In this document: positions 4,528 to 39,529 of the stretch, one piece after another
Numbering within the stretch: position 1 is the first letter of the stretch
How the letters are laid out: each line of letters opens with the position of its first letter
DNA from: a virus
Direction: 5' to 3' (one strand)
IMG/VR virus record: IMGVR_UViG_3300028045_000982
Span: 1-43,974 of that record
Length of the DNA: 43,974 nucleotides
Made by a program: the position numbers and the translations under genes
Notes under the pieces: model-generated
Database searches by the model: none
What the model was told of the DNA's origin: nothing
The model's input: only the letters and a program-made list of their open reading frames with translations

Positions 4528-5637
4528 TTAATCTTCCCGTTTGCCTACGCCGTAGTCAATAACAACTGGAAAACGTGGAACACCATCTGGTGTAAGCTCA
4601 AAGAAACGACAAGTTGCCCAGTTTGGCTTTTGTGTGCTTTCTAACAACTCTTTCAATTGTGCTTGGTTACCACGTACACCACTGCCAAACTCACGTCCGT
4701 CTGCAAGTGCTAGTACAAAACGTTTTGCATAACCTGCCCACGCACCTTGTCCTTCAATTACTTCTACTACACGAAACTCTTCTGTAATGAACTCTTTGCG
4801 CTTTAGCAGGTTCTTACTGCGCTTACATTCATATGGTGCATCGTTGCGTACCATTTGTCCTTCGTATCCACGCTCCATATAGTCGCTGTACAGTGCGTCT
4901 AGTTCTTCTTGAAAGCTCGCATAGTCTGTTTGTACAATGTGTACTACATCGCTTGCTAGTGCGTTTGTAAGCACAATACGCTCCTTGAATAGCATATCAG
5001 GTTGGTTGCTGTTGTAGCAATCATAAACGTGAAATTGTACTAGCTCACGAGCTTCTTCAATCTCTGCTGGCTTGCATTTTACTTTGCGCACAAGGCTTGT
5101 AATCTTATTAAAGTCTGCTTTTAGTTCGTGATTGTAAAGTTCACCATCTAATACAATACCTGGGTTTGCTAGGATAAATGGTTCCACTGATTCCCAAATA
5201 TGTGGACAACTTGTAATAGCTTTGCCACTGCGTGTCCATAGTCCGTTAGCATCTGCAACACAACGAATACCATCTAGTTTAGGTTGACTGTAGCCTGATT
5301 CCTGTGGACGCTTGGTGTAATCGTGTGCTAGCATTGGCTTGAACTTTGTGTAGCTGTCAATTTTGTTAACATCTTCAAAGTATTCTTTTTCTACGTTAAT
5401 AGCCCAAAGTGCTTCTGCTTCGGCTTGTGCTTGTGACCGACTGTCTGTGGCATTAGCACGGCCAACGTTTTTAGCAACACTGATATTCCAGTTGCTGGTT
5501 ACTTTTTGTCCATCAACTAGTCCACTGATTGTACGAGTGCCTGCTTTGGCATCTGTGCTGTATTGTACTGTCCATTCACGGACTTTGCCTTTTGTATCAC
5601 GTTTATAAAGTGTTGGCAACGATACGATGTTTTTCAT
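4528..5637 (-). CDS. ATP-dependent DNA ligase
   Basis: The 369-residue protein has the covalent nucleotidyltransferase motifs. Motif I is QPKLDGIR with the adenylated Lys at residue 120. Further motifs are VLDGELYNH, FHVYDCYN, EGQMVR and LLKRKEF, followed by an OB-fold-like C-terminal region (EEFRVVEVIEG to GVRGNQAQLKELL). It seals nicks in duplex DNA in replication and repair, as T4 gene 30 does, but is shorter than T4 ligase. The N-terminal 90 residues before the ligase core (EWTVQYSTDAKAGTRTISG region) resemble a small WGR-like beta domain; that is only an impression. The start overlaps the stop of the upstream gene as TAATG, and a terminator follows. Confidence 0.88.
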   Translation of the reverse strand: MKNIVSLPTLYKRDTKGKVREWTVQYSTDAKAGTRTISGLVDGQKVTSNWNISVAKNVGRANATDSRSQAQAEAEALWAINVEKEYFEDVNKIDSYTKFKPMLAHDYTKRPQESGYSQPKLDGIRCVADANGLWTRSGKAITSCPHIWESVEPFILANPGIVLDGELYNHELKADFNKITSLVRKVKCKPAEIEEARELVQFHVYDCYNSNQPDMLFKERIVLTNALASDVVHIVQTDYASFQEELDALYSDYMERGYEGQMVRNDAPYECKRSKNLLKRKEFITEEFRVVEVIEGQGAWAGYAKRFVLALADGREFGSGVRGNQAQLKELLESTQKPNWATCRFFELTPDGVPRFPVVIDYGVGKRED

Positions 5638-7882: not shown

Positions 7883-8836
7883 TTAGTATTTAGCCAATAC
7901 ACTCGCTGTATCTGCCATTCTACAACTAAAGCCCCATTCGTTATCATACCAAGCTAGTACACGTACAAGATTGCCGCCAATGACTTTTGTTTGGTCTGGT
8001 GCAAATATACTGCTTTCGCTTGTGTGATTAAAGTCAATGCTTACAAGTGGCTGTGGTTCATAACCTAGCACTGTTGGCATTTCAAGACTTGCTTGATGAA
8101 CAATAGTATTAATTTCTTCTTTGATTGTTTCACGCTGTGCTACAAATGTCATATCAACACAACTTACGTTTGGTGTTGGTACTCTAATAGCACTGCCGTC
8201 TAGTTTGCCACGCAATGCAGGTATTACATCGCCTATTGCACTTGCAGCACCTGTTGACGTAGGAATCATACTTACGCCGGCTGCACGGGCTCTGTACAAG
8301 TCCGTGTGTGCTTTGTCGTGTGTGAGCTGATCGCCTGTGTAAGCGTGTATTGTTGTTACAATGCCACTTTGTATTCCAACTGTGTTATGCAATACTCTTG
8401 CAAGTGGTGCTAAACAGTTTGTGGTACAACTGGCGTTACTAACAATGTTGTCGTTGGCAGTAATAGTATTGTGGTTAACACCATAAACTATTGTGCGTGA
8501 TACATTTTTTGCAGGTGCGCTGATAACAACTTTACGTGCGCCTTTTTGTAAATGTACTTTACAAGCTTCGCCATTGTTAAATGCGCCTGTGCATTCTAAT
8601 ACAACATCAATGCCTGTCCAATCTAGTTCAGCTAGGCTTCTAGTATGGCTCCATTCAGGATAGTACGGAGGTGCAAAGCGACCGTGAACACTATCAAACT
8701 TTAGCAAGTGTAGATTAGTGTCCAAGTCGCCTGTTGCATTAATTTTAACAAGTTGCATATCTGGTCTTGATTCCAAAATATGTCGAGCTGTTGCCCTGCC
8801 TATTCTTCCAAAGCCGTTTATTGCAACTTTAATCAT
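7883..8836 (-). CDS. gap: Glyceraldehyde-3-phosphate dehydrogenase (GAPDH)
   Basis: The 317-residue protein is a full GAPDH. It has a Rossmann motif NGFGRIGR (7-14), KFDSVHGRF, the catalytic loop SNASCTTNCLAP with Cys137, and base His164 in TIHAYT. The S-loop RARAAGVSMIPTSTGAA, RVPTPNVSCVDM and C-terminal WYDNEWGFSCRM follow. It would oxidise and phosphorylate glyceraldehyde-3-phosphate with NAD(P). Asn33-Ala34 replaces the usual ND(L) at the end of beta-2, so the acidic residue that binds the adenosine ribose is missing and cofactor choice may be relaxed. A hairpin after HGRF is about 15 residues shorter than usual. It sits in the NrdB/glutaredoxin operon and overlaps the next gene by TAATG. 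Erythrose-4-phosphate dehydrogenase is the main alternative; the S-loop favours GAPDH. Confidence 0.93.
   Translation of the reverse strand: MIKVAINGFGRIGRATARHILESRPDMQLVKINATGDLDTNLHLLKFDSVHGRFAPPYYPEWSHTRSLAELDWTGIDVVLECTGAFNNGEACKVHLQKGARKVVISAPAKNVSRTIVYGVNHNTITANDNIVSNASCTTNCLAPLARVLHNTVGIQSGIVTTIHAYTGDQLTHDKAHTDLYRARAAGVSMIPTSTGAASAIGDVIPALRGKLDGSAIRVPTPNVSCVDMTFVAQRETIKEEINTIVHQASLEMPTVLGYEPQPLVSIDFNHTSESSIFAPDQTKVIGGNLVRVLAWYDNEWGFSCRMADTASVLAKY
7886..7893 (-). promoter_or_regulatory. T4-type late promoter (CTAAATAC) for the PAAR gene
   Basis: CTAAATAC on the minus strand lies inside the last codons of GAPDH, 21 nt before the PAAR start codon. It fits a late structural gene following an early operon. 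Confidence 0.55.
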
Positions 8837-16805: not shown

Positions 16806-17423
16806 TTACCAATAAAGCTTCCATTTTGGTGTTTTATTTGTTAGGCCATTTGTTAACAGTTGGATATTATATCCTAAGTTAGAAAAATGAGTTGTAACTT
16901 GTTCTATTTCGTCTGTTTTAGCTCTGTCAGTGCGTGTACCAACATTTGTTTGATGATACTCAACGCTAAGAGGATTTGGAATTTCAATTGTTTGTGCTAG
17001 AAAACCAAAACGTGCATTAGCTGTTCCTGCGCCAACTTCTAGGCACCAAGCTGTTGCTAGTGCTGTATATTCAATTGCCAAACGTGAACTACTGTCTTTG
17101 GTTGCACAAACACCAGGTATTGCTGCATCGTTGATATCTGCTATTGCACTGTTTAAGTTTACACCAGTTGTACCAAGTGTAACTGTACTACCTGCTAAAA
17201 TAAGTGTTTCGCCTGCTACAAATGTTGGGTTTGAAACTGTTCCAACTAATGTAATCGCTGGTGTCGAATCAGTCATTATAGTGCCATCGTCGACTTCGAT
17301 TTCATAAAGTCCACTGTCTGCCGCTACTATAACTGCACGAGCAATTGCTGATACTTCATCGTGTATTGTTACATTCGCACGAGATAAGCTTCGTGCGTCG
17401 TGACTGTTTAGTTTTCTTGTCAT
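16806..17423 (-). CDS. Virion-type protein with one fibre repeat, 205 residues
   Basis: Residues about 57-145 (LVGTVSNPTFVAGETLILAG, then VNLNSAIADINDAAIPGVCA) are a recognisable single copy of the repeat that occurs seven times in the 851-residue fibre-like protein. The flanking regions differ: an N-terminal helix (NSHDARSLSRANVTIHDEVS) and a C-terminal part ending in PKWKLYW. It overlaps the 111-residue gene as ATGA and belongs to the late transcript running from 18.5 kb. It probably assembles with the fibre protein; that is inference from the shared module. Confidence 0.7.
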   Translation of the reverse strand: MTRKLNSHDARSLSRANVTIHDEVSAIARAVIVAADSGLYEIEVDDGTIMTDSTPAITLVGTVSNPTFVAGETLILAGSTVTLGTTGVNLNSAIADINDAAIPGVCATKDSSSRLAIEYTALATAWCLEVGAGTANARFGFLAQTIEIPNPLSVEYHQTNVGTRTDRAKTDEIEQVTTHFSNLGYNIQLLTNGLTNKTPKWKLYW

Positions 17424-17755
17424 TTGATATCCTTACTTACTTGCTTGGCTGCTAGTTTGTCAACCGCAGTATCATCTATCTCTTGTTCTTCGTCATCTAG
17501 TTCGCCACCACTAGTGTCTACATCAGTAACAAGATCAATCTTGTTATAGCTTGCATTACTTACAACTGGCAAAGATTTTACAATGTCAAAAAGACTCTTA
17601 GTGTCAATTGTGTATCCTAACTCTCGGAGATCATTCTTGAGTTGGTCCATATCAACACTTTGAATACCTTCAGCTGAAATAGCCACGAGCAACGCAACAA
17701 TGTCGTCTCGCATTTCGATAGAATAGTTTTCTGTGACTACTTCAAATAATTTCAT
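17420..17755 (-). CDS. Unknown acidic late protein, 111 residues
   Basis: I do not recognise this protein. It begins MKLFEVVTENYSIEMRDD, a short amphipathic N-terminus with a V-T-E site resembling the removable capsid-targeting peptides of T4 internal proteins. The middle is helical (VDMDQLKNDLRELGYTIDTK) and the C-terminus is acidic (GGELDDEEQEIDDT). It is coupled to its downstream neighbour by ATGA and lies 4 nt after the 250-residue gene. A capsid-internal or assembly role is possible. Confidence 0.65.
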   Translation of the reverse strand: MKLFEVVTENYSIEMRDDIVALLVAISAEGIQSVDMDQLKNDLRELGYTIDTKSLFDIVKSLPVVSNASYNKIDLVTDVDTSGGELDDEEQEIDDTAVDKLAAKQVSKDIK

Positions 17756-19401: not shown

Positions 19402-19627
19402 TGCCTGAATCCAATTCAATGTGCGCACTAAGAATATCGTTTAGTGCATCTAAGTCTTCGTTTTCAAGTGCAGTATCAATTGCTAGGATATCGCTCAGTC
19501 CTAGATTGTTTACTAGTACACGAACTTCTTCGTCACTGAGTTCAAGTCCAAGTTGATCAGTAACCATAGCTTTGATAGCTGTTGCCATATTGTTGTCGTA
19601 GTCTTTGAGTCCTTCAAGTAATTTCAT
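19394..19627 (-). CDS. Unknown small acidic late protein, 77 residues
   Basis: I do not recognise this protein. It begins MKLLEGLKDYDNNMATAIKA and continues as an acidic helical bundle (LGLELSDEEVRVLVNNLGLS, then AIDTALENEDLDALNDILSA). It overlaps the basic 92-residue gene upstream by 4 nt (ATGA) and its smaller neighbour downstream. The opposite charges of this protein and its neighbour would allow a complex, but that is speculation. Confidence 0.6.
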   Translation of the reverse strand: MKLLEGLKDYDNNMATAIKAMVTDQLGLELSDEEVRVLVNNLGLSDILAIDTALENEDLDALNDILSAHIELDSGNA

Positions 19628-19902
19628 TTGTTTAACCTTTGTACAATTTTGCTTGCTGCGTTATACTTTTTAGTACGCTTTGCTTTACGTGCCATTCTAG
19701 CACCCATTTTAGCTTTGGTACGTTTTAGCACAAAACGCTTTTTTAAATCTACCGGAGCGTTACACTGTGTAGGGCTAGATACAACACGGCCTTTGCGTTT
19801 GCCTACTGAACATCTATACTTACGTGCAACCTTTTTGCCTTTGCGAGCCCAAACTAGTTTAGCTTCTGTAACTGCTTGTTCTGATAATTGTCCTAGCTTC
19901 AT
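19624..19902 (-). CDS. Very basic small protein, 92 residues, likely nucleic-acid binding
   Basis: More than a quarter of the residues are Lys or Arg (ARKGKKVARKYRCSVGKRKG, RTKAKMGARMARKAKRTKK). Two cysteines (CSV, QCN) could form a metal or disulfide site. It begins MKLGQLSEQAV, where L-S-E matches the T4 prohead-protease cleavage pattern, so it may be packaged in the head with DNA. It overlaps both neighbours by 4 nt. No known family recognised; a DNA-binding internal head protein is the best guess. Confidence 0.65.
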   Translation of the reverse strand: MKLGQLSEQAVTEAKLVWARKGKKVARKYRCSVGKRKGRVVSSPTQCNAPVDLKKRFVLKRTKAKMGARMARKAKRTKKYNAASKIVQRLNK

Positions 19903-20666
19903 TTGTTTTCTCCGCCTTGTGGGTAACGTATCATTGTTTCTCTAAAGCGAAAGTCTTTGTTGCGACCTTTGTTTGGTACAAAACCAAAACGCTTATAGAA
20001 CTTGATCAGTCTGTTTTTGTTCCCACCAAACGCACTGTCTGGGGTTAGTGCGATAATAGCACCTTCTCTATCCATTCTGTCAACAATGTCTTGCATTGCT
20101 TTTGTACCTTGCCCGGCATTACGCTCGTCACCTGATACTTCAATCTTAGATAACACATAACCTTTTTCAGCATCGCCGTGTAATGATACTTCAACTTCTT
20201 CTGTTACAGAAACATTTGGATTGAACAGTTTGAAGTGATCATTTTGTTCACGTCCATCATCTGTACTTGTTACGTCTAGTTTCCAACCAAGTTGGCTTGC
20301 CATTTGTCTTGCAAAGCGTGCATAAAGTTTTGCTCTACTAGCACCAACATCATCACTTTTATCTGCACTAAATGAAATTAGTTTTGTCTTAGACAAGTCT
20401 ACTTTTGTTATCCAATCTTTTAGTACTGCTACCACAGTAGCGAAGATTCTAAATTCATCACCAGCGCCGCTTTTGCCCATTCTGCCACCGACTGCAAAGT
20501 CAATAGTCCAACTGCTGTCAGCTTCTTCCCATTCGGCCATTACTAACATCAACCCAGCTGGTGTATCTGCTTTAGCTACCCAGTGATCATCTAGTTGTTT
20601 ATCCCACCTGTAAGCATACGGATTGTCCATTGATTCAGTTAGTGGTATAATGTCTGCTATGTGCAT
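19899..20666 (-). CDS. GNAT-like acetyltransferase domain protein
   Basis: The C-terminal 100 residues carry the GNAT pattern. A strand (YVLSKIEVSGDERN) is followed by the acetyl-CoA loop NAGQGTKAMQDIVDRMDREG, then IIALTPDSAFGG and the late helix-strand LIKFYKRFGFVPN. The N-terminal 150 residues are a separate alpha/beta domain (SSWTIDFAVGGRM, VVAVLKDWITKVDLSK). The protein begins MHIADIIPLTES, in which L-T-E fits the T4 prohead-protease site, so it may travel in the capsid. A late promoter (GATAAATA) lies 25 nt upstream with AAGGAG. It could acetylate a host or virion protein; substrate unknown. Confidence 0.7.
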   Translation of the reverse strand: MHIADIIPLTESMDNPYAYRWDKQLDDHWVAKADTPAGLMLVMAEWEEADSSWTIDFAVGGRMGKSGAGDEFRIFATVVAVLKDWITKVDLSKTKLISFSADKSDDVGASRAKLYARFARQMASQLGWKLDVTSTDDGREQNDHFKLFNPNVSVTEEVEVSLHGDAEKGYVLSKIEVSGDERNAGQGTKAMQDIVDRMDREGAIIALTPDSAFGGNKNRLIKFYKRFGFVPNKGRNKDFRFRETMIRYPQGGENK

Positions 20667-22439: not shown

Positions 22440-24485
22440 TTATCTTTCTCTTCCCATATTTGCAGCACTAAAGCCACTGCGGTTAACTAATTTACTATCA
22501 CCTTGTCCAATTACATAGCCTTCTCCGCCACGCTGTCCGTCAGTGTATGCTTCTACGTCTGCTTCGCCTGCGTCCAATTGTGCAATGATATCATTCTTAA
22601 CTGACATAATACCAGTTACAATTTTGAACAGTGCTTTCATACCATCTATATTATCTTCAACGTGTGCTAGCATACGCTCTTTCATTGGTGCTGAAAGTTT
22701 AGCTGTGTCTAACCAACCTGCATAGTCAGTGTCTAGGCTATCAAGCTTACGTGCTTTTGTCATATTGTTTACATATGAGTAAAGTGCATTTTTAAAACCA
22801 CTTAGTTTGTTTGCTTTCAAGTAGCTGTCATCTAACAGTGTATCAATCTTAGTTGCATTGCTTTTAGCAAATGCTTCGAGCTTGTTTAGGTTTTCAGCTT
22901 CTACTTTAGGAGCTTGTGTTACTGTTACTGGTGGCATAATAAGCAAGTCGCCAGCGTTTAGTTTGCTTACGTCAACTTTGCTTTTGTTACCTTCGAAGTC
23001 CATATGTGCGTGTAGTACAACGCCTGCGTTGCTTGAAGCAATTTGCTTACCAATGTCACTGTCTGGCTTAACACGATACGTAACAATGTTTGGTGTAAAC
23101 TCATATGCACCTTCTACGATACCTGGTGTTGAAAAGTATAGCAAGTCTCCTAGTACATAGCCTTCAAAGCTTTCTGGAGTTGCTGATTCAAATATGCCGT
23201 ATACTGTTTTCATTTTTTCAATGAATGGTCCGTAGCCGTCTGGGTTCTTAGCATAGCCAGGACGATTCTTTAGCATAGTTTCTAATTCGTCTGCACTCTT
23301 TGCTCTACCGTTGTATCCTTTAGCACCAAAGCCACTTTTGTCAGTTAGAATAAAGTTACCTTCTTCGTCACGTCCAAATATAACTGCTGGCGAGCCGTCC
23401 CACTTAACTGTGATACTTGATGGATCATTTTCCAAGCCGTGTAGTGTGCTGATTGCTTTGCTGATACCTGCACTGCCGTTCCAGATAGCTAAATCTTCAA
23501 CGTGTTGAATACGTGCATCTTCTGTTAGGCCCAAGTTGTAAAGTGTGTGAACATCACTTTTCTTACGTGCTGTTTCAGTTAGTTCACTTGGAACACCTTT
23601 GGCAACAATGCTAGGGTTTTTAGCAAACTGATCAAATATTTGTTTTGCTACGTCTGCTGGGTAGTTTTTCTTTACTGCCGCATACAATGTTTCAAAGCTG
23701 TACAAATCTTCCGCACTGTCTAGCTTGAGAATTTTTGCCCAGTCTTGTGGGTTCTTGTATGGACCTTTAACAACTGTGTTGCTGTTTGCTTTTGTATATC
23801 CACTGCCGTCTTTTTTAGCAACTGGTTTGCGTACAACACGTACCATACCATCTGATGGTGAGTACATCCAACGTTCTAGTTCCATTGGTCTTCCATCTTC
23901 TGTTGTTTCGTCGCTTTTGCGTGATGGTAATGCAGCCGCAATACTTGCAATCATAATGTTACGATGAACACCTTTGTATTTGCTGCTTCTTCCATCTTGG
24001 CTCATTTCTTTTGATGCAGGACTGAAGTAATAGTTTTTCATAAAGTCTACATCACCTGGCATAAAGTCAATTTGTACTTTGCCTGTGCGTGTTAGTCCTG
24101 GTGCTGTTTTAGATTCGTCGTAGCCAACAATGTCAACTACTGTCATAAACACACTAGACTTTTTAATGTCTTGTATAAGTGAACTTGTGCTTAGCTTTTT
24201 AGCAAACGCTTCTAGTTCTTCTTTGTCAAGTTGTACTGCAATATCAATATCACCTGAGAACTCTTTTTTACCAACACTGCCAAGTGCGTTTGACAATAAC
24301 GGAACACCCAACTCTTTTTCAAGTTGTGCTAGTGTAGGTTCAATTTCGCTGTGGTGAATACTACCAACGCCTGGCATTGCTCCGCCTTCGTTGATGTGAA
24401 ATGATGCTTGTACTATTCTTGAAGTACGGGGGCCTCTTGTAGCTTTACGCTTACTGCCTGTTGATAGGATATCAGAAATCTTCAT
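22440..24485 (-). CDS. Polymerase-beta-type nucleotidyltransferase fused to KxDG ligase-like domain
   Basis: The 681-residue protein joins two catalytic-looking domains. Domain 1 (about residues 45-190) has the polymerase-beta superfamily signature: GS at 69-70, D79-I-D81, and a third Asp at 140 in VQIDFMPG. Domain 2 (about 325-681) has ligase-type motifs. Motif I is VKWDGSPAVIFG with Lys361, a motif III-like stretch is GYVLGDLLYFS, motif IV is EGYVIG (655-659), and motif V is KLVNR around Lys665. A C-terminal helical region separates III and IV. Together they could add nucleotides to an RNA or DNA end and seal it. The N-terminus (MKISDILSTGS; H-I-N-E near residue 33) resembles a capsid-targeting peptide. 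Cyanophage relatives of domain 2 are known to me only as uncharacterised proteins. Late transcription unit. Confidence 0.75.
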   Translation of the reverse strand: MKISDILSTGSKRKATRGPRTSRIVQASFHINEGGAMPGVGSIHHSEIEPTLAQLEKELGVPLLSNALGSVGKKEFSGDIDIAVQLDKEELEAFAKKLSTSSLIQDIKKSSVFMTVVDIVGYDESKTAPGLTRTGKVQIDFMPGDVDFMKNYYFSPASKEMSQDGRSSKYKGVHRNIMIASIAAALPSRKSDETTEDGRPMELERWMYSPSDGMVRVVRKPVAKKDGSGYTKANSNTVVKGPYKNPQDWAKILKLDSAEDLYSFETLYAAVKKNYPADVAKQIFDQFAKNPSIVAKGVPSELTETARKKSDVHTLYNLGLTEDARIQHVEDLAIWNGSAGISKAISTLHGLENDPSSITVKWDGSPAVIFGRDEEGNFILTDKSGFGAKGYNGRAKSADELETMLKNRPGYAKNPDGYGPFIEKMKTVYGIFESATPESFEGYVLGDLLYFSTPGIVEGAYEFTPNIVTYRVKPDSDIGKQIASSNAGVVLHAHMDFEGNKSKVDVSKLNAGDLLIMPPVTVTQAPKVEAENLNKLEAFAKSNATKIDTLLDDSYLKANKLSGFKNALYSYVNNMTKARKLDSLDTDYAGWLDTAKLSAPMKERMLAHVEDNIDGMKALFKIVTGIMSVKNDIIAQLDAGEADVEAYTDGQRGGEGYVIGQGDSKLVNRSGFSAANMGRER

Positions 24486-24506: not shown

Positions 24507-24752
24507 TTACTTGTCATTGGCTTTCTTGATCCCTCTGTCAAACTTTTTAATATCTTTAGCTCGTATGCTGTTGATTAACCGTTTGATAAGATCATTTGCA
24601 GTTTCTTCGTCGTAAGTCTCGTTTATCATATCTATTAGGTTAATTGCACTGGCAACAACATTACTAGCGTTATTTTCAATCAGATACTTGCGATCGCGGG
24701 TTGCGGCGATGCTATTAATTTCTTCAAGTATGGATCTAGTACGTTTTTTCAT
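24507..24752 (-). CDS. Unknown small protein, 81 residues
   Basis: I do not recognise this protein. It is helical and basic at both ends (MKKRTRSILEEINSIAATRD; KRLINSIRAKDIKKFDRGIK) with a hydrophobic middle (NVVASAINLIDMI). It is preceded by AAAGG and by a late promoter (CATAAATA) 21 nt upstream. It heads the late unit containing the nucleotidyltransferase-ligase fusion, 21 nt further on. Confidence 0.65.
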   Translation of the reverse strand: MKKRTRSILEEINSIAATRDRKYLIENNASNVVASAINLIDMINETYDEETANDLIKRLINSIRAKDIKKFDRGIKKANDK

Positions 24753-24773: not shown

Positions 24774-24781
24774 TATTTATG
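24774..24781 (-). promoter_or_regulatory. T4-type late promoter (CATAAATA)
   Basis: CATAAATATC on the minus strand, 21 nt before the ATG of the 81-residue gene; it lies back to back with a plus-strand late-like element. Confidence 0.6.
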
Positions 24782-29068: not shown

Positions 29069-29647
29069 CTATAGTGCTTGTTCTATTAACAAGTTCATAT
29101 GTGCTACTACGGCTAACGCATAGGATATTGCGTGAGCTTTTTTAAAGTAGTACGTGCCGTCTTCTGGCCTGATCCATACTTCCTTTAAAATAGTATCCCA
29201 AGGTTTGTCTGCTAAGTGACGTTTTGCTGGACGAATAACTGCCAACAGTGCAGCTAGCTTTTCTAAACTGTCTGGCTTTAGTGTTTTACACAGTTCGTGA
29301 TGTCCGCTTACGTGAAACAACAAATCACAAAACTCTTGTTCTTCTAACAATGCCCATACTGGTTCTTGCTTGCATAGTGCGTCCAAGTGATTGTCATCTC
29401 TAACGTCTTTGTATATGTTAACATTAAGTACATCAATCTTAAAGTAACCCAAGTCTTCTGCTGACTTGTATTCAACTGTACTCCAACCCGTAAATGGATC
29501 AGTTGGTATCTTATGAAAATACACACCTGTGTTGTGTTTGCTTATCTTGCCATCCCTGTCCATACTAGCAGGAACACCGCCAAGTATTGTTAGCAGTTTG
29601 TCACGATCAAACGTGTCGATGTCAATATCTGTATTTGCTATCTTCAT
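29069..29647 (-). CDS. Compact DnaE-like (family C polymerase) protein, 192 residues
   Basis: Short stretches line up in order with DNA polymerase III alpha. NTDIDIDTFDRDKLLTIL resembles the catalytic PDIDIDF...RDEVI motif. GYFKIDVLNVNIY resembles the GLxKxDfLGL motif, SLEKLAALLAVIRPAKR resembles the sLxxLvALyRPGP motif, and YYFKKAHAISYALAVVAH resembles the F-x-KSHAxxYAxxxY motif. Family C enzymes exceed 1,000 residues, so this keeps only fragments of the palm and fingers, with no PHP, thumb or OB domain. The second palm acidic pair seems reduced. It overlaps the zinc-finger gene by 4 nt. It may bind primer-template, inhibit host PolIII or act as a specialised enzyme; all are inference. Confidence 0.65.
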   Translation of the reverse strand: MKIANTDIDIDTFDRDKLLTILGGVPASMDRDGKISKHNTGVYFHKIPTDPFTGWSTVEYKSAEDLGYFKIDVLNVNIYKDVRDDNHLDALCKQEPVWALLEEQEFCDLLFHVSGHHELCKTLKPDSLEKLAALLAVIRPAKRHLADKPWDTILKEVWIRPEDGTYYFKKAHAISYALAVVAHMNLLIEQAL

Positions 29648-36634: not shown

Positions 36635-37180
36635 TTAAATGTTACCTTGTACTTCATCTAAGAAGTCAAAATAACCTTCGCCCATAGCTTCCAAGCACTT
36701 ACGAGGGTCACCACCGCCAACGCCTGCACCTAGTAAAACACTGCCTACACGTTTGATGCCAGCTTGTTGAGCAGCTTTCATAAAGTTGTATGTGCCTTTG
36801 TGTACAATGTCAAGACTTGGTGTTTTGGTTTGCATTTTACCAAAGCTATCATTTCTACCAATAACTGTTGGAACAATAATAATCCACGGAATAGTTCCGC
36901 CAACTTTGATTGCTCTTGCTTGTCCTACAACCATTGGCTTGTCTTGTATGCTCTTTTGTACAATTTGTTGTAGTGGAATCTTTTGATACTTTTCAAAGTA
37001 TGTGCGAATCTTCAAGTCGTAACCACCTGACATTTCGCCAATTGTATTAGCAGGGCTAACAATAGCATCAAGGTTAACCGACATAGGATCGCCTCGTACC
37101 CATTCGTCTCCTATGCCCATTTGTTCTGCTAGTTCGATGATATGTGTTTTTGTATCACCTAAAATTAAGTCTGGTACCAT
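36635..37180 (-). CDS. Macro-domain protein (ADP-ribose binding)
   Basis: The 181-residue protein has macro-domain landmarks: DAIVSPANTIGEMSGGYD (the AxxNAN-GGG-like loop, here SPANT...SGGYD), VVGQARAIKV, a strand IPWIIIVPTV, a helix GTYNFMKAAQQAGIKRV, and VLLGAGVGGGDPRKCLEAM. Such domains bind or hydrolyse ADP-ribose or its protein adducts. The catalytic Asn/GGG details are partly altered, so activity is unsure. It overlaps the metallophosphoesterase upstream by 16 nt and shares its promoter. It could reverse ADP-ribosylation or process NAD-derived metabolites or signals; this is inference. Confidence 0.82.
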   Translation of the reverse strand: MVPDLILGDTKTHIIELAEQMGIGDEWVRGDPMSVNLDAIVSPANTIGEMSGGYDLKIRTYFEKYQKIPLQQIVQKSIQDKPMVVGQARAIKVGGTIPWIIIVPTVIGRNDSFGKMQTKTPSLDIVHKGTYNFMKAAQQAGIKRVGSVLLGAGVGGGDPRKCLEAMGEGYFDFLDEVQGNI

Positions 37181-38380: not shown

Positions 38381-39529
38381 ATGGAAAATAAACCAAAGTG
38401 CTATGCTCCTTACCTAGGAGTGTTTTATCGCACAAACAATAACAGAATCTCACCTTGTTGTCAATATCTTGAACATTCAGACCCTAATGAATATGATTGG
38501 CAGAAAGTTGCCAACGATGTAGAACTAGGCGAAGAAAGTAAAAACTGTGTAACTTGTTACGACAGAGAAAAGTATGGCAAAACCAGTTTGCGTCATAGCT
38601 TTGACAAATACAAAGAAAGCTTTGCTCCCGATTGGAAGTCAGGCTTTAAACCTGTGTATGCTGATGTTCGCACCAGTAACTTTTGTAACTTGCAATGTAA
38701 TATGTGTTCGCCATTGGATAGCAGTAAGATCGAAAGCTTTGTTAAACTCAATCCACAAATGGAAAAGTACTTCAAGGAAGTAGGCAAAGACTTTAAGAAC
38801 CAAGCTGTAAATGTTCCTGTTGCAAACTTAGAAGATTTAAAAGTACTCAAGGTTGCAGGTGGCGAACCTACTATTGATCCTATGTGCAAGAAGTTCTTAG
38901 ACCAAGTATGCTACGAACATATTACAAGTGATATGGACTTATGGGTTACAACAAATGCAACTAAGATGATTCCATTCTTGCAAACATACAAACCAAAGTT
39001 TCGCAAGTTGTGTGTAACACTTAGCTTGGATGCAACAGGCGATATACTTGAGTTTATACGCTATCCTGCTCGCTGGAAAGACATTGAATCAAACATAAAC
39101 GATGCTATCGAGCAAGAGTTGTGTGACGATATGAATGTAAACATTGTAGTACAACCTTACAATTTACTTACATTAAAACAATGGCTTCCGTGGTTTTCAG
39201 AGTTTAGAAAACGTGTACCACGCACTAAGATTGTTTTCCTTGAATGTACTACGCCTAAGCATTTTAGCTTACGTGCAATGCCAAACGTGGCTAAGGACGC
39301 TGTACGTGCGTCTGTACAGGAGCTGCGCACTAGTTTAGATAATATGGACGACAAGCTTGATGAACTAGACAAAATGCTGGATAAATCAGAGTACAAAAGA
39401 GAATATCACCAGATACTTTTAGAGTATACTGATGATATTGCTGTTACCCGTGGTATGGGTAGTGTTTACGATAAGTTTCCAGAATTCAATGTGTTAAAGG
39501 TTGATATCCTCAAGTCCAGCGGCACGTAG
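38381..39529 (+). CDS. Radical SAM enzyme with N-terminal accessory cysteines (twitch-type)
   Basis: The 382-residue protein has the radical SAM cluster motif C-X3-C-X2-C (FCNLQCNMC, about residue 103) and a GGEPT motif for SAM binding (KVAGGEPTID). An N-terminal set of cysteines (SPCCQYLEHS; NCVTCYDREKYG) may hold an auxiliary cluster, as in twitch-domain proteins found in marine myoviruses. C-terminal helices (SLDNMDDKLDELDKMLDKSE) are coiled-coil-like. It would modify a peptide, sugar or nucleotide by radical chemistry; substrate unknown. It is plus-strand, late, probably leaderless, divergent from the NeuA-like gene. Its 3' end overlaps the end of uvsY on the other strand by 36 nt. Confidence 0.88.
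   Translation: MENKPKCYAPYLGVFYRTNNNRISPCCQYLEHSDPNEYDWQKVANDVELGEESKNCVTCYDREKYGKTSLRHSFDKYKESFAPDWKSGFKPVYADVRTSNFCNLQCNMCSPLDSSKIESFVKLNPQMEKYFKEVGKDFKNQAVNVPVANLEDLKVLKVAGGEPTIDPMCKKFLDQVCYEHITSDMDLWVTTNATKMIPFLQTYKPKFRKLCVTLSLDATGDILEFIRYPARWKDIESNINDAIEQELCDDMNVNIVVQPYNLLTLKQWLPWFSEFRKRVPRTKIVFLECTTPKHFSLRAMPNVAKDAVRASVQELRTSLDNMDDKLDELDKMLDKSEYKREYHQILLEYTDDIAVTRGMGSVYDKFPEFNVLKVDILKSSGT

Follow-up and report, generated by a model that had tools for sequence, protein, structure and literature searches.

A T4-type phage gene with the features of a packaged precursor for a Pol-beta-type nucleotidyltransferase and a DUF6267 ligase-like enzyme

In a stretch of viral DNA taken from IMG/VR record IMGVR_UViG_3300028045_000982 (positions 1 to 43,974; the whole 43,974 nucleotides are called the window here), an uninterrupted open reading frame on the minus strand (22440-24485) encodes a 681-aa protein made up of a leader, a Pol-beta-type nucleotidyltransferase (NTase) and a DUF6267 ligase-like domain. 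Our chief new point is that this product, judged from its sequence, has the look of a packaged polyprotein and not of the single add-then-seal enzyme that had been predicted for it originally. We tentatively propose that the precursor is packaged, loses its leader and is cut once more inside, and that the two resulting enzymes would be ejected and would repair RNA (tRNA) early in infection; taken as a whole, we hold this reading at slightly less than an even chance. The domains, the conservation of their motifs, the gene neighbourhood and the pattern of leader and cut sites were computed.

The reading frame starts with an ATG preceded by a ribosome-binding-like AAGGAA, and a full-length relative (L002) shares 93% identity with the 681-aa product. 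Viral contigs yielded 381 relatives, whereas 84,980 genomes of bacteria and archaea gave a single weak one, located on a 3.9-kb MAG contig. This marks the family as essentially viral, and a cellular origin of the gene was discarded. The window is a piece of a T4-type marine phage genome, with genes for UvsX-like, gp32-like and UvsW-like proteins, a DnaB-type helicase, a primase, a ribonucleotide reductase and an OB-type ATP DNA ligase (4528-5637); no tRNA genes were found in it. Sequence searches of the PDB with the protein itself and with alignments A3, A4 and A7 gave nothing relevant, the leading entries, such as adiponectin or ribosomal protein eS8, being compositional matches, and weak Pfam/NCBIfam matches to KorB, DUF1949, DUF2683 and NqrA were set aside as chance. 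Elsewhere in the window, minus-strand genes specify a phage-encoded ClpS-type Clp protease adaptor (139-438; PF02617, 3.9e-26), a glyceraldehyde-3-phosphate dehydrogenase (7883-8836; PF02800, 1.1e-53), a Macro domain protein (36635-37180; PF01661, 5.2e-6) and a 192-aa protein that matches a DNA polymerase PHROG at 1.1e-63 (29069-29647), which hints at a DNA polymerase that is split or divergent. A radical SAM protein (38381-39529; PF04055, 3.7e-7) is encoded by the only substantial plus-strand gene seen. Macro domain proteins are of a type suggested to handle ADP-ribose signals when phage and host are in conflict.

The first half of the protein, predicted to form a mature NTase of residues 34-322 with a palm-like part and a C-terminal region (23520..24386, minus strand), carries the GS, DID and third-aspartate motifs on which the original prediction was built: LGSVGKK (69-73) with G69-S70, SGDIDIA with D79 and D81, and VQIDF with D140. 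The residues of these motifs are invariant in alignments A1 and A3, save that in A3 S70 and K73 are only nearly so; across the 38 diverse NTase relatives that make up A3, the invariant positions are G69, G72, D79, D81, Q138, D140, Y170 and G172. Standalone relatives of this half occur in Flavobacterium phage immuto and in the jumbo phages PA5oct, Atu_ph07 and Phosso (25-33% identity to the jumbo-phage proteins), with weaker matches in Lak phages. AlphaFold modelled the NTase half with a mean pLDDT of 84.7, rising above 90 over the greater part of residues 41-300, and Foldseek matched the model to DNA polymerases beta, lambda and mu in the PDB (best E=7.2e-5, probability 1.00), at TM-scores of only about 0.34. 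Considering that the probability is 1.00 but the TM-score about 0.34, we take the palm to be firm and the C-terminal part to differ from Pol X. An hhalign comparison with bacterial PolX (5e-4) was likewise confined to the palm, where it covered GS, GDID and the third Asp. As far as profiles and models can tell, then, this half belongs to the Pol-beta superfamily, with family X palms as its nearest matches, and the predicted fold stands. It has GS, DxD, the third Asp and the palm fold in common with DNA polymerase X (Pol beta, lambda, mu and bacterial PolX), from which it differs in being without the 8-kDa domain and in not reaching the Pfam palm and thumb models: the palm model PF14792 was matched by 2 of the 38 members, at best with 0.13, and the thumb model PF14791 was not listed.

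The RlaP tRNA-repair family (PF10127), the obvious home for the originally predicted repair function, did not take in the NTase: hhalign gave E=0.57 at a probability of 0.1, hmmscan gave no match, and the catalytic-loop sequence of RlaP is unlike that found here. We know of no packaged RlaP protein. The concept is nevertheless the same, as RlaP proteins are RNA-ligase-associated Pol-beta NTases of tRNA repair (PMC7824862), acting beside an RNA ligase.

The second half (residues 323-681; 22443..23519, minus strand), which is the predicted mature DUF6267 ligase-like enzyme, matches Pfam DUF6267 (PF19782) at E=8.4e-34 (118 bits against a cut-off of 27, profile positions 4-372 of 376) and phrog_455 at 1e-23, both of them families without an assigned function; a literature search on DUF6267 found no papers. 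Most DUF6267 members come without an NTase, and many adjoin or are fused to a cytidylyltransferase. The KWDG, EGYV and KLVNR motifs that had been read as those of a ligase are all present, as motif I in TVKWDG (KWDG 361-364), motif IV in GEGYV (EGYV 655-658) and motif V (665-669), together with HxED (328-331), GD (446-447) and PNxxxY (465-470). In all 96 DUF6267 relatives, K361, D363, G364, G446, D447, Y470, H492, N573, K630, E655, G656, V658, K665 and F672 are invariant, K361 (codon 23403..23405, minus strand) being the predicted site of covalent nucleotidylation. EGYV is present twice: the C-terminal copy (655) is the conserved motif-IV-like element, and the copy near 439 is not conserved, the invariant pair beside it being G446-D447. 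The motif-III acid is Asp447 and not a Glu. Given the DUF6267 match, the 25-33% identity to jumbo-phage NTases and the 381 viral relatives, the motifs of both halves lie far beyond chance.

The DUF6267 half was modelled with a pLDDT of 92.4, and its Foldseek matches in the PDB were weak (best 0.039, to a tRNA ligase), with Trl1-type tRNA ligase and RNA ligase adenylyltransferase domains first. Among predicted viral structures, DUF6267 relatives came first, several of them fused to cytidylyltransferase domains, followed by PA5oct EST35_0228 (1.6e-3) and a protein of Atu_ph07 that is named RNA ligase (0.038). Proteins of Phosso, Atu_ph07 and PA5oct belong to a phage KxDG protein family of 14 members (alignment A7), and their genes lie beside, or two genes before, that of the NTase. 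With hhalign, DUF6267 aligned to A7 at 6e-9 (probability 96) and A7 to genuine phage Rnl1 (T4 RNA ligase 1) at 4e-5 (probability 70), where E-values from Foldseek and from profiles of small private alignments are those of single comparisons. The A7 profile did not match DNA-ligase, PolX or RlaP controls, and the comparison of DUF6267 with bacterial ATP DNA ligases aligned at most the 8-residue motif I. By eye, motif I is preceded by HxED and the motif-III acid is followed by PNx[IV]xY in the alignments of both DUF6267 and A7, which also share EGxV...K, F standing at +7 and N at +11. Direct BLAST of the window protein against the Phosso ligase-like protein found nothing, and the connection needs profiles. 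Pfam RNA_ligase was matched by 6 of the 14 A7 members (best 0.0011, below cut-off), and the Rnl1-type profile PF09511 by one of the 96 DUF6267 members at 0.011, also below cut-off, which makes the link to Rnl1 an indirect one via A7. An RNA-ligase profile built from clostridial PF09414 matches contained DNA ligases and gave weak results, and was rejected.

Based on the chain from DUF6267 over A7 to Rnl1, in which the last link is moderate, the profile evidence supports reading DUF6267 as an RNA-ligase-like adenylyltransferase, set in no named RNA ligase family. The original assignment of a KxDG ligase-like domain is thereby tied to RNA-ligase-like proteins. With T4 RNA ligase 1-like and fungal tRNA ligase adenylyltransferase domains (PF09511, PF09414) it shares KxDG as motif I, EGxV as motif IV and the motif V Lys; unlike them it has Asp at motif III, the PNxxxY signature, a long helical insert between motifs IIIa and IV, K(x3)R in place of KxK at motif V, and Pfam scores below cut-off. 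By a rough estimate, the enzyme classes of the two halves are very probably as assigned here.

The case for packaging begins at the N terminus. Residues 1-33 (MKISDIL...FHINE; 24387..24485, minus strand) form a predicted cleavable capsid-targeting leader that ends in a gp21-type site, INE/GG (the slash marks the presumed cut), and AlphaFold predicts residues 1-30 to be disordered, at a pLDDT of about 30. The border of leader and NTase reads [ILVF]xE/[GS]G in 38 of 38 A3 rows, although the leaders vary in length and sequence. Standalone NTases of the other lineage begin at the equivalent MGG or MSG; because of these starts, cutting of the leader or removal of methionine would lead to the same N terminus. 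A second predicted prohead-protease site, LTE/D (residues 320-322; 23520..23528, minus strand), marks the domain border in the linker comparison; its P1' residue is Asp and not the usual A, G or S, and another candidate inner site, LTE/T, lies upstream of it at 302-304. In standalone DUF6267 proteins, a short leader (MKINEILMEKA or MRFNEF...LTEGARIQH, for instance) likewise has [hydrophobic]xE ahead of the domain. This pattern is found in 16 of 16 unique linkers of fused proteins (shuffled mean 5.7), in 34 of 34 separate DUF6267 proteins with an NTase neighbour (shuffled 18.4) and in 35 of 46 remaining DUF6267 proteins (shuffled 15.0), and the strict form [ILVF]xE[AGSDK] in 15 of 16, 29 of 34 and 26 of 52, respectively, versus 10% of 695 control N termini; coming from related, non-independent sequences, these counts gauge consistency and not probability.

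The protease that such sites call to mind, an S77 prohead protease, was found in six records (five reference phages and, from the same lineage, contig G003), and not in the 44-kb window, itself a genome fragment; the major capsid proteins of related phages show LSE/S, LSE/A, LME/N or LVE/N near the expected place (by eye). In PA5oct, the orthologue of the NTase (EST35_0231) bears a structural-protein annotation from ESI-MS/MS, and the ligase-like EST35_0228 of the same phage carries an annotation without virion detection. T4-GC190, a cytidylyltransferase partner of DUF6267, was found in S-SM1 virions (PMC3037559). We liken the leader to those of the T4 internal head proteins (IPI-III, Alt), whose propeptides of 10-19 residues, with processing residues 8 and 10, target them to the head and are removed by a gp21-type cut next to Glu10, the contents being ejected later (PMC9026906). 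The internal proteins named there are neither ligases nor NTases, and in our case one precursor would give two enzymes. In rough terms, packaging of the protein, put forward in the original prediction along with delivery with the genome, is probable and in keeping with the leader and site pattern, the S77 protease and the structural annotation of EST35_0231; its cutting into two enzymes is moderately probable.

Leader-like starts were also seen in other minus-strand genes of the window. That of a GNAT-family acetyltransferase (19899-20666; Pfam 4e-4), possibly a packaged enzyme, reads MHIADIIPLTE/SM and is similar to MKISDIL, and small genes at 17420-17755 and 19624-19902 start with MKLFEVVTE and MKLGQLSEQAVTE, suggesting a run of putative packaged proteins around 17-25 kb of the window.

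Directly upstream of the reading frame lies an 81-aa gene (24507..24752, minus strand; PHROG 11854, virion structural protein, 3.3e-17), whose place beside the NTase/ligase pair is conserved. In 78 IMG/VR and reference loci carrying all three, the small gene comes first, then the NTase, then DUF6267, the last two adjacent or fused, and 13 of 15 loci of the other lineage have the small gene, an A7-type ligase and the NTase, with ligase and NTase mostly touching. In other words, two lineages have the NTase next to a ligase-like protein or fused to it, and the ligase families differ between them. In Kyanoviridae, a HIGH-type cytidylyltransferase follows, or is fused to, DUF6267 in 60 loci; none of the loci combined it with the NTase within the fetched flanks, an exclusion that describes these loci and is not a census, as the query sets were drawn separately. 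Since an NTase or a cytidylyltransferase adjoins or is fused to it across loci, some nucleotidyltransferase recurs as the partner of the ligase-like protein. Some of the cytidylyltransferases are fused to a zeta-toxin/AAA_33-type kinase, and such kinases stand beside or are fused with the cytidylyltransferase near DUF6267 in L008 (6745-7404), L170, L164, L107, L108 and L112, a domain pair that resembles NadR. Genes adjoining DUF6267 or an A7-type ligase in L008 (3950-5008), L009 (3926-5011) and L003 (3647-4666) also share a possible PD-(D/E)XK-like stretch (TD...SLK), noticed by eye and without a Pfam match.

A T4-late-promoter-like ATAAATA (24774..24780, minus strand) precedes the small gene. 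Motifs of this type lie upstream of the small gene in 24 of 50 loci, before the NTase in 0 of 60, before DUF6267 in 0 of 41 and before 89 of 643 control ORFs, and exact TATAAATA and CTAAATA were not above chance frequency in the window. The placement of the motif before the operon fits late expression, as the original prediction had it.

We infer cleavage, ejection, catalytic activity and substrate as follows. The N-terminal leader would bring the precursor into the prohead, where a gp21-type prohead protease would cut after E33, taking off the leader, and after E322, between the domains. Inside the head this would leave two mature enzymes: a Pol-beta-type NTase that begins with Gly-Gly, and a DUF6267 ligase, the latter an RNA-ligase-like adenylyltransferase that would form a covalent K361-AMP. 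Ejected with the DNA, both would act early in infection, chiefly on tRNAs that host defence nucleases have cut, with the NTase putting back lost nucleotides and the ligase resealing. Roughly put, RNA repair is a role that we favour, unproven as it is, at less than even chances. The reasons are the RNA-ligase-like character of the ligase half, the phage's own DNA ligase, and the finding that related contigs, which are fragments, showed no other RNA ligase above cut-off. Against it speak the position of the NTase, nearer to DNA Pol X than to the tRNA-repair NTases known so far, and the fact that Kyanoviridae put a HIGH-type cytidylyltransferase, usually a small-molecule enzyme, in the place of the NTase. 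The Pfam scores below cut-off, the deviations at motifs III and V, the Asp at P1' of the inner site, the annotation of EST35_0228 and the window's lack of tRNA genes also count against the overall proposal. The fullest form of the proposal is doubtful, namely a nucleic-acid repair kit of two enzymes that comes from one precursor cut by the prohead protease, is injected ready-made, includes a new RNA ligase clade in DUF6267 and reverses tRNA cleavage from the first minutes.

Because the NTase is nearest to Pol X, the main rival is that the packaged pair mends the incoming phage DNA by filling its gaps and sealing its breaks, as ASFV PolX with its ligase and NHEJ polymerase-ligase pairs fill and seal DNA. 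Family X DNA polymerases are indeed the best structural and profile matches of the NTase, the locus lies among replication genes such as those of a DnaB-like helicase and a primase, and packaging would suit the mending of injected DNA; we still regard this as unlikely, given a ligase half that is RNA-ligase-like, has no OB domain after motif V and aligns with bacterial ATP DNA ligase profiles over motif I at most, in a phage that already encodes a DNA ligase. The exchange of the NTase for a cytidylyltransferase in Kyanoviridae, sometimes with a P-loop kinase domain in a NadR-like architecture, makes a small-molecule or protein substrate possible: the nucleotidyltransferases, once injected, might help to take over the host or counter its defences by nucleotidylating its proteins or small molecules (NAD-related nucleotides, for example), much as T4 ejects the host-modifying enzyme Alt (PMC9026906). 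A Pol-beta palm paired with an RNA-ligase-like domain is more typical of enzymes of nucleic-acid ends, however, and ligase motifs I, III-like, IV and V are all present, so that we consider such a target quite unlikely.

The original idea of one intact bifunctional enzyme, uncut between its domains, draws on the single ORF and on the fused domains of at least 16 distinct relatives. It appears improbable to us, as every fused form keeps a prohead-protease-type site in its linker, and separate genes are common, each with its own leader and site, their products starting at, or having leaders that end at, the would-be cut sites.

The proposed packaged pair of RNA repair enzymes provides a testable function for DUF6267, a family found widely among marine cyanophages, pelagiphages and related T4-type viruses. 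If it is true, phages would bring ready-made RNA repair enzymes in the virion that are active before any phage gene is expressed, so that repair would precede the stop of translation by tRNA-cutting defences, and the gene would be an example of a phage head protease yielding two enzymes from one precursor.
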